From Haloterrigena alkaliphila (GTDB lineage Archaea; Halobacteriota; Halobacteria; Halobacteriales; Natrialbaceae), in assembly GCF_017352155.2 (NCBI RefSeq), contig NZ_CP071462.1, positions 992,001-1,056,000 of the forward strand: DNA of 64,000 nt. The letters are read 5' to 3'. The notes beneath the pieces were generated by a model, which had not been told where the DNA came from, did not search any database, and saw only the letters and a program-made list of their open reading frames with translations. The position numbers and the translations under genes are program-made. How positions within the stretch are numbered: the first letter of the stretch is position 1; each line of letters begins with the position of its first letter. Positions 33,685 to 35,741 of this stretch are shown here, in pieces.

Positions 33685-34317
33685 CTACGCCGTCGAGCTA
33701 GTTCCAGACGTACACGTCGGTTTCGGCGCGTCGAGTCCCCCGTCCTCGGGGTTCTGGATCAGTTCGACGTCGAGCTCGTCGAGCGACAGCTGGGAGATGA
33801 ACTGGCTGTCGGTCGTGATCTCGCCGTTCCGGATCGTGACGCTCGAGGACGAAATTCGCATCGTATCCACCTCGCCGCTGGTGTCGTACTCGGTGGTCTG
33901 CTCCCCGTCGAACGCGATGTCGCCCTCGAGGTGCGTGAACTGCTGGTCGAGTTGTCGGAAGGTTGCGTCGTCAGCCTCGATCGACACTCTGACCGTGTTT
34001 CCGGTCGCCGGCATCTCGACGTCCTTGAACAGGTGCAGTCCCTGAATCGTTCCGCTGTCGATCCGCGCGACGCTGGCCGGGTACTCCCCACAGCCCGCGG
34101 AACTGTCGAGCGTCGAGCGCTGCTCGAACCCGTTCCCCTCTAATTCGTCGAACGCGATCGCGAACGTCCCGACGCCGCTGAGCGGGACGGCTGTCGCAAC
34201 GCCGGCCGAAACCATCCCGACGAGGACGCCGGCCAGAACGACGTTCGAGACGAGAAACCCGACGACGAACCGTTTGCGATCGATTGGCACGAGTGTCCGG
34301 TAGTCCAACAAAGGCAT
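33685..34317 (-). CDS. DUF6230-like membrane-anchored surface protein
   Basis: A 210-residue protein with one N-terminal membrane helix (about 20-45, VVGFLVSNVVLAGVLVGMVS) and a large outer domain (GVGTFAIAFDELEGNGFEQR, IDSGTIQGLHLFKDVEMPAT, SQLSLDELDVELIQ). The pattern recalls the DUF6230 family known from actinobacteria, where such proteins are cell-surface linked. The match is from memory and needs a profile search. A minus-strand TATA (GGATAAATAC, about 34349-34358) lies upstream. Same direction as the glyco-repeat gene behind it. Confidence 0.65.
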   Translation of the reverse strand: MPLLDYRTLVPIDRKRFVVGFLVSNVVLAGVLVGMVSAGVATAVPLSGVGTFAIAFDELEGNGFEQRSTLDSSAGCGEYPASVARIDSGTIQGLHLFKDVEMPATGNTVRVSIEADDATFRQLDQQFTHLEGDIAFDGEQTTEYDTSGEVDTMRISSSSVTIRNGEITTDSQFISQLSLDELDVELIQNPEDGGLDAPKPTCTSGTSSTA

Positions 34318-34631: not shown

Positions 34632-35741
34632 CTACCCGATTCGCAGGAGATCGGTCGTCGTATCTAGGGTGTCCTCGACGGCGTCCGTCGTATTATCGAC
34701 CGTTTCTTCGACGGCGTCCGTCGTGTTGTCGACCGTATCGTCGACCACATCGGTCGTGTTGTCGGCCGTGTCGTCGACCGTATCCGTCGTATTGTCCACC
34801 GCATCAGTCGTCTCGTCGACCGTATCCGTCGTGTTATCGATCGTGTCGTCGACGGCGTCCGTCGTATCGTCGACAGCGTCCGTCGTGTTATCAACGGTAT
34901 CGTCGACCACGTCGGTCGTATTGTCGACCGTGTCGTCGACGGCATCCGTCGAATTGCCGAGGGTGCCCTCGACCACATCGGTCGTGTTATCGATGGTGTC
35001 GTTGACCGCGTCCGTCGTGTTCTCGAGTGGATCGTCGACGATATCGGTCGTATTATCGTCGGATTCGTTTCGCTCCGCCTCGGTCTCGCCCTCGTCCTCG
35101 ATCCCGAACGCGTCCCTGATCGTGTCGATCATATCGATCGAGTCGGGGACCTGCGCCAGGAGGGTCAGCACCTCCTCCGGCGGGAGCACGACCGTCAGCG
35201 TGTCCGCCTCGCCCTGGGCGAACGCGACGTCGGTTCGCGGGCCGAGGAGCGTCGTCTCCTCGAACTCGACGCCGTTCATCCGGAGGCGAACCCCGCCGCT
35301 CTCTTCCGCCGCCCCGTCGATACAGAGCGTATCGGCGGCGATGTATCCGGATTCGATTCGGAACGTTGCTTCCACCTCGGTCCGTCGGTGCTCGCGCGAC
35401 GTCACGGTCGACGACTGCGTCTCGAGGTTCGTCGACTCCTGCTGGTAGGCGTTCATCGAGATGTCCCTGAGCGACGGCGCCGGAAGACAGCCCAGGGAAT
35501 CGAGGAGACTCGCGTCCTCCAGTTGCGGCGTCTCATTTGAGTCCGTCTCGGATCCCGTCAGGTTTCCCGTTACGGTCCCAGTCACGTTTTCCGTCGCGGT
35601 TCCGGTCACGTTTTCCGTCACGTTCCCCGTCTCGGTTCCCGTGACCTCCTGTGCCGCCGCGGTTACGGCGACGCCGGCCGGGAGGCTCGCGACGAGGACG
35701 ACGACGAGGGTCGCGGTCGCCAGCGAAGATCGATCGATCAT
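34632..35741 (-). CDS. Secreted glyco-repeat protein with 11-residue NTTDAVDDT repeats
   Basis: A 369-residue protein. Residues 1-30 (MIDRSSLATATLVVVLVASL PAGVAVTAAAQ) are a Sec signal. A second segment (about 32-70) repeats NVTGT-type sequons. A globular part spans about 75-210 (TEVEATFRIESGYIAADTLC, LRMNGVEFEETTLLGPRTDV). Residues 229-369 are 11 units of the pattern DNTTD-A/V-V-D-D-T-V/I, each with an N-T-T or N-S-T sequon, plus short 7-residue inserts. No membrane anchor or sorting signal is seen. Probably a heavily N-glycosylated, extended cell-surface or secreted protein. Confidence 0.75.
   Translation of the reverse strand: MIDRSSLATATLVVVLVASLPAGVAVTAAAQEVTGTETGNVTENVTGTATENVTGTVTGNLTGSETDSNETPQLEDASLLDSLGCLPAPSLRDISMNAYQQESTNLETQSSTVTSREHRRTEVEATFRIESGYIAADTLCIDGAAEESGGVRLRMNGVEFEETTLLGPRTDVAFAQGEADTLTVVLPPEEVLTLLAQVPDSIDMIDTIRDAFGIEDEGETEAERNESDDNTTDIVDDPLENTTDAVNDTIDNTTDVVEGTLGNSTDAVDDTVDNTTDVVDDTVDNTTDAVDDTTDAVDDTIDNTTDTVDETTDAVDNTTDTVDDTADNTTDVVDDTVDNTTDAVEETVDNTTDAVEDTLDTTTDLLRIG
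34635..35057 (-). repeat. 33-bp coding repeat of the glyco-repeat protein
   Basis: The DNA of this part repeats with a 33-bp period (one 11-residue unit), with two shorter partial units. Unit bases vary at many third positions, so the repeat is old or diversified. The units carry a valine/isoleucine at regular places, consistent with an 11-residue coiled coil. Confidence 0.85.

Follow-up and report, generated by a model that had tools for sequence, protein, structure and literature searches.

The target gene of this study, located in a 64,000-nucleotide stretch of the Haloterrigena alkaliphila genome (the window), encodes a secreted repeat protein, which we read, at about even confidence, as the glycosylated, conditionally helical stalk member of an uncharacterised DUF6230/DUF6114 surface module. 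Computational evidence supports the repeat and its helical phase, the export signal, the excess of sequons, the conservation of the units and the gene association, and we infer from the overall picture that the tail of the protein could be induced to form a helix and could act as a spacer. The original prediction had described an extended, glycan-coated fibre of 11-residue units; the observation itself was confirmed, and its interpretation was partly supported.

Table 1 Features of the target gene and its downstream neighbour in the window.
Feature	Position	Strand	Basis
Whole gene, 369-aa secreted repeat protein (P0001)	34632..35741	minus	ORF, translation, orthologs
Sec-type signal peptide, residues 1-30	35652..35741	minus	lone hydrophobic stretch, no lipobox, no RR
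Thr/Asn-rich linker, residues 31-74, 5 sequons	35520..35651	minus	sequons at 40, 44, 52, 60, 69
Conserved beta domain, residues ~77-215	35097..35513	minus	alignments and AlphaFold2
11-residue amphipathic repeat tail, residues 228-366	34644..35060	minus	14 units, 12 sequons, three 7-residue steps
DUF6230 family protein, downstream neighbour	33685..34317	minus	PF19741 over cut-off

Domain layout and orthologs of the target protein

Translation of the minus-strand ORF, from an ATG at 35741 to its end at 34632, gave the target protein (Table 1); the long plus-strand ORF at 34669-35448 over the repeat array is an antisense shadow of this gene. The protein has one hydrophobic stretch only (residues 1-33), and its sequence contains no later segment at the transmembrane level and no lipobox, twin arginine or PGF-CTERM. 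A Sec-type signal peptide with no second membrane segment agrees with the original view of a secreted protein without an anchor, and the sequence suggests that signal peptidase likely cuts between TAAA and QE, before Gln31. The sequons of the linker are mostly missing in the aligned orthologs.

The conserved part of the protein is the N-terminal beta domain, which, like the gene module with DUF6230 and DUF6114, had been overlooked in the original prediction. Cys85 and Cys140 of this domain are invariant in alignments across three haloarchaeal families, and an AlphaFold2 run on the target monomer, using an alignment of 11 orthologous sequences, gave a confident model of it (block pLDDT mostly 82-94), consisting of beta structure with short helices at the ends. 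Searches of Pfam and of PDB sequences gave no match to the domain, and those of PDB folds no convincing one. A known fold was rejected because Foldseek gave no match under E 1e-3 and VIA Z was at most 3.4, and the hotdog and LptC/LptF chains that were intermixed among the best fold matches represent noise level. The assignment of the domain as a divergent DUF6230 (PF19741) was also rejected, given no Pfam match and an hhalign probability of 0.5-1.5%. For the DUF6230 neighbour, the predicted model was poor, and a fold search with it yielded nothing.

In a Pfam profile search, the target showed no named family above its cut-off, in agreement with the original statement that it matched no family known to its author, and a PDB sequence search gave weak chemoreceptor or peptide matches only. 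Below the Pfam cut-offs, the tail was matched best by apolipoprotein, ApoO, ApoLp-III and phasin; perilipin ranked lower. The scores against the curated cut-offs were 22.3 vs 90 bits for PF01442 and 11.2 vs 33 bits for PF03036, and the likeness to both families is one of periodicity only. A phage origin was rejected because the PHROGs matches were only to tape-measure regions and confined to the tail, and a plasmid origin because there were zero plasmid matches to the beta domain.

The window derives from Natrialbaceae, the family that includes Natrinema, and ten genomes of genus g15 (Natrinema) have orthologs of the beta domain, with the gene order of the window preserved: IF2-gamma, PIN, RpoE, DUF359 ... 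DUF6230, target, FAH hydrolase, cyclase and FAD oxidoreductase, with individual flank genes missing from some loci. An eleventh g15 genome (G054) retains a decayed copy of the target (L030:8189-8785), with DUF6230 gone and DUF6114 present only as a fragment. The beta domain is missing from the other five species of the genus to which the window belongs, and in the three own-genus genomes examined the interval from DUF359 to the FAH gene contains neither the target nor DUF6230. A profile search with the beta domain added four genomes from two other families of the order (L092-L095), whose proteins combine the same domain with long NTT-hendecad tails; their units include VDNTTGTVGDTVNNTTGTVGDV (L093) and NTTDGVKDGVE (L095), and the Gly content is higher in these distant tails than in the target tail.

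Sequons and helical phase of the repeat tail

The tail of about 140 residues is built from units typified by DNTTDAVDDTV and contains hardly any Lys or Arg. The anchor [TS]-D-x-[VL] divides it into 14 units with spacings of 11, 11, 11, 11, 11, 7, 11, 7, 7, 11, 11, 11 and 11, and an in-register sequon is present in 11 of the 14 units (ten NTT and one NST) but not in the 7-residue steps or the last unit (DTTTDLL); the eleven sequon-bearing 11-residue units with 7-residue inserts of the original prediction were thus counted correctly. One extra NDT brings the tail to 12 sequons; with six more outside it, at residues 40-69 and 225, the whole protein has 18. All 12 Asn residues of the tail are within sequons, whereas shuffling at constant composition gave 3.4 ± 1.5 and none of 20,000 shuffles reached 12, and a sequon excess was detected at p ≤ 0.001 in seven of ten orthologous tails and at p = 0.015 in one more. 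The same genome encodes an STT3/AglB-family oligosaccharyltransferase; with its export signal and N-X-S/T sequons, the target has the sequence features of N-glycosylated secreted haloarchaeal proteins. This is in line with expectation from Haloferax, where the N-glycoproteins of the main data set were by prediction secreted or transmembrane proteins (PMC8241124). Judging from these features, the target would be glycosylated at its predicted sequons and located at the cell surface.

Between the tail units, pS was 0.56 and pN was 0.17 (ratio 0.19; dN/dS about 0.19), which indicates purifying selection on the units. The units diverge mainly at synonymous sites, and the array is therefore not the product of a recent tandem-repeat DNA expansion, which this divergence rules out. 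Identity at lag 11 was 0.58, with peaks also at 7, 18, 22, 25 and 29, and the hydrophobicity spectrum of the tail peaked at 99° per residue on three scales, so that the 11-residue periodicity proposed at the outset was recovered in both measures. About 1% of the orderings of the 11 column means match the helical harmonic of the unit. On an 11/3 wheel, D8, D1, D5 and D9 cluster with N2 at the border, and A6, T10, T3, V7, V11 and T4 form the opposite half; V7, T10, V11 and T3 fall in the canonical hendecad core positions a, d, e and h, and the target thus combines 11-residue periodicity with a phase-locked stripe in a/d/e/h, as expected of a hendecad coiled-coil sequence. The nonpolar face covers approximately half of the wheel and consists nearly entirely of Thr, Val and Ala, and such a face is typical of weak surface-seeking 11/3 helices as much as of coiled coils.

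The spacings between units were analysed in the target and the L093-L095 tails. The helical phase was preserved in 31 of 40 non-11 spacings against 23% expected (naive p = 4e-13) and, counted by distinct lengths, in 7 of 11 (p = 0.004), although these p-values are only approximate, since inserts of equal length may have a common origin, such as repeated 7s from duplication. The three L093-L095 tails have their own hydrophobicity peak at 98-99°, with T3, T4, V7 and V11 conserved and the polar positions changed to Gly, Lys or Asn. The 99° peak and the phase-keeping spacings together suggest that an amphipathic 11/3 helix of the tail is probably under selection.

Structure prediction, which the original prediction had set as its refuting test, went against a standing helix: in the AlphaFold2 monomer, the tail was disordered (pLDDT 36-47) with zero helix, a result with which an induced or oligomeric helix is still compatible. 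A conditional helix or a glycan brush fits this disordered tail better than a permanent fibre, and because the helical phase appears to be selected, the conditional helix is the best reading that accommodates both observations. In that reading, a low mean helix propensity (0.61 kcal/mol), a Thr content of 28%, the higher Gly content of the distant tails and the lack of an AlphaFold2 helix would favour an induced helix over a standing one.

Under another explanation, which we regard as somewhat unlikely, the tail is a disordered, mucin-like acidic spacer in which sequon density and charge alone were selected and the 11-mer pattern is a by-product of duplication. The predicted disorder agrees with this, as do the orthologs with non-periodic sequon-rich tails, the Pro/Gly units of the closest relatives, which hold the 11-residue sequon spacing and lose the hydrophobic positions, and the NTTDPGDETGG units of a secreted protein from elsewhere in the family (L050). 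However, the hydrophobic stripe is conserved in two other families despite polar changes to Gly, Lys and Asn, it continues across inserts and in units without a sequon, and a phase kept over 320 residues is not expected of a duplication by-product.

The orthologs also bear on the claim that each turn carries a glycan. Hendecad tails were found in three of the ten g15 orthologs (G070, G073 and G078), and the other seven have shorter sequon-rich tails without hendecads. At the start of the three hendecad tails, units such as DNTTDPDDDTG retain the sequon and have Pro, Asp and Gly at the hydrophobic positions; at the end, units such as DGTTDVVDETV retain the stripe and have lost the Asn. These sequences indicate that sequon and hendecad are separable and not obligately coupled. 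One glycan per turn is therefore not obligatory, although a predicted sequon is present in most units of the window protein.

It is improbable, in our estimation, that several tails are wound into a glycan-coated stalk as a right-handed hendecad coiled coil, like the tetrabrachion stalk of the Staphylothermus S-layer. The residues in the core positions and the coiled-coil-compatible steps of 11 and 7 would allow such a structure, and profile matches to ZorA and to tape-measure regions, weak as they are, point in the same direction; the target shares the hendecad core spacing with the tetrabrachion stalk and trimeric adhesin undecads, and an extracellular archaeal stalk as a concept. By contrast, its core is made of Thr, Val and Ala with few Leu or Ile, so that it differs from right-handed hendecad coiled coils in having no strong hydrophobic core, no predicted helix and a sequon per unit, and the distant tails are Gly-rich. 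The PDB sequence search found no relation to such coiled coils. The hendecad stripe of the originally proposed coiled coil was upheld, whereas the half-nonpolar wheel and the missing AlphaFold2 helix speak against the coil itself.

Haloarchaeal membrane lipids are diphytanyl ethers, and haloarchaeal membranes are acidic. The 11-mer helix of perilipin 4 (Plin4) is Thr/Val-rich with almost no aromatics and is unfolded in solution; among the liposomes tested it bound only methyl-branched diphytanoyl ones, reaching approximately 70% helix, and its droplet targeting was lost when the net charge turned negative (PMC5889406). The target resembles the 11-mers of perilipin 4, alpha-synuclein and apolipoprotein in its 11-residue units, weak Thr/Val/Ala face and low intrinsic helicity, but unlike Plin4, which is cytosolic, slightly basic and without inserts between its 33-mers, it is secreted, strongly acidic, archaeal and equipped with a sequon in most units. 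As an extracellular counterpart of perilipin-4 and alpha-synuclein, the tail could form an amphipathic helix that lies on the outer phytanyl-lipid face with its glycans on the solvent side. Such a helix is worth testing given the lipid preference of Plin4, and the sub-cut-off Pfam matches, a muH of 0.44 and an aromatic content of 0 in the tail agree with it. The heavy negative charge of the tail (about -47) on acidic membranes argues against it, as does the effect of negative charge on Plin4, and Asn2 lies merely 33° from Ala6, near the interface. We give this reading little chance. An equally small chance is given to its fuller form, an N-glycosylated perilipin-like 11/3 helix tuned to phytanyl membranes that would coat the outer face with spaced glycans within the DUF6230-DUF6114 module.

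Association with DUF6230 and DUF6114 genes

The DUF6230 neighbour, with a hydrophobic N-terminus forming a membrane helix and a beta ectodomain, is proposed as the partner of the target. The two genes are separated by 314 bp, and co-transcription is therefore not certain. A strong DUF6230 ortholog occurs in exactly the genomes with an intact target (11 of 11 Natrialbaceae), and the domain, the sequon-rich tail and the downstream DUF6230 gene were found together in all 11. The loci vary in their further content: six g15 loci contain the target, DUF6230, DUF6114 and then a convergent HTH regulator; the window and its three closest relatives contain the target and DUF6230 only; and in the four distant genomes from two other families the target homolog is accompanied by DUF6230, DUF6114 and an HTH regulator. 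DUF6114 (PF19609), a 4-TM protein, is not in the window locus and is encoded elsewhere in the same genome. An HVO_0513-like HTH_10 regulator lies between DUF6230/DUF6114 and DUF359, convergent to the target genes, in L023-L029; a copy remains in L030, and the window locus has none.

Many Natrialbaceae possess a second locus encoding an HVO_0513-type HTH protein, DUF6230, DUF6114 and a 4-TM protein, and in several genera also a secreted protein with NDTVDHTEETV hendecads. The domain of this protein matched the target domain in hhalign with E 2e-4 and 46% probability and is probably a remote relative of it, and its list of sub-cut-off Pfam matches was similar. These "class III" proteins (L063, L064, L065, L069, L070, L044, L049, L052, L054 and L056) have a signal peptide, a two-Cys domain, a sequon-bearing hendecad tail and a DUF6230 neighbourhood in common with the target; they differ in that homology is seen by profile comparison only, in their repeat unit and in the additional 4-TM protein of their locus. 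In the window's own genome, the second DUF6230-DUF6114-4TM locus (L062:4881-6704) has no hendecad protein between the DUF6114 and 4-TM genes, unlike its relatives, and the target is thus the only such partner found at the two DUF6230 loci of this genome.

Among 30 DUF6114 regions sampled irrespective of repeats, seven contained a clear same-strand hendecad ORF and one more a weak one. By the same criterion, the 152 ORFs of the window gave nothing besides the target and its antisense shadows; the controls, three own-genus loci and one unrelated own-genome locus, gave 0 of 85. Other DUF6114 loci have sequon-rich non-periodic or PKD-like partners; together with the hendecad-free orthologs, they indicate that the module can do without the helix. 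The target adjoins DUF6230, its homologs adjoin DUF6230-DUF6114, and it is not itself a DUF6230 protein. Adjacency to and co-occurrence with DUF6230 are conserved (11 of 11 Natrialbaceae and four genomes in two other families), and related tails turn up again in distant haloarchaea, where their neighbours are the same two or three uncharacterised genes. The target therefore probably belongs to a hitherto undescribed cell-surface module, in which it may physically contact DUF6230 and DUF6114. No functional study of either family was found in the literature searched, which contained one passing mention of DUF6230 and no mention of DUF6114.

Proposed role and other 11-residue repeat proteins

In the mechanism that we propose, the module would comprise the secreted glycan-bearing target, a membrane-anchored DUF6230 beta protein, the 4-TM DUF6114 and often an HVO_0513/HTH_10 regulator. 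The target, exported by Sec, would present the beta domain as a constant head and the acidic tail as a variable stalk, and AglB would N-glycosylate most of the approximately 12 regularly spaced tail sequons. The free tail would be extended and largely unfolded; on meeting a hydrophobic partner, which may be another copy of the protein, another member of the module or the membrane, its units could fold as an 11/3 amphipathic helix. Thr, Val and Ala would then form one face, with Asp and the glycan-bearing Asn opposite or at the border. Charged and coated with glycans, the stalk may thereby act as a spacer that keeps the head at the S-layer or beyond it.

The background of tail-like repeats was about 38 places in 125 genomes. 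Several loci (L035-L038, L040-L043, L045, L048 and L057) encode tandem winged-helix regulators (HVO_0163-type HTH) that are anchored in the membrane and bear long hendecad regions outside the cell, with 2 to 15 sequons, which suggests a family of surface-sensing transcription factors. Like the target, they carry extracellular 11-mers (NETTDAIEGTT-type) with sequons on the polar side; they differ in an A/G-rich hydrophobic segment followed by the tandem wHTH, and several members are sequon-poor. A secreted protein adjoining DUF6230-DUF6114 (L116:3790-4986, minus strand) has a near-perfect 11-mer, NTTNETLTNAT, with up to three sequons per unit and 26 counted. In the secreted L050 protein, the repeated NTTDPGDETGG units place a sequon every 11 residues among Pro and Gly, where a helix is unlikely. 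In several g15 genomes, small Gly-rich proteins with one hydrophobic segment (L046, L047, L051, L053 and L055) have 11-residue amphipathic repeats that are practically sequon-free, and they possibly derive from integrated elements. A protein on an own-genus contig (L039), with no evident signal peptide, has Lys/Asp hendecads (TVDKVDDTVDK) and resembles LEA-type 11-mers.

No paper on haloarchaeal hendecad or 11-residue repeats was found in the literature searched. The 11-residue amphipathic repeat as such is of a known kind; new here are the sequon built into it, the domain without a named family and the undescribed DUF6230/DUF6114 module. The location of DUF6230 and DUF6114 beside a secreted, predicted glyco-stalk protein in haloarchaea provides a first functional handle on both families. 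Amphipathic 11-residue units with a built-in N-glycan site, present in at least three protein architectures, constitute a recurrent archaeal design. The coupling of glycan spacing to helix geometry thereby becomes testable, as does the binding of weak Thr/Val helices to archaeal branched-lipid membranes, as seen for Plin4 on diphytanoyl liposomes.
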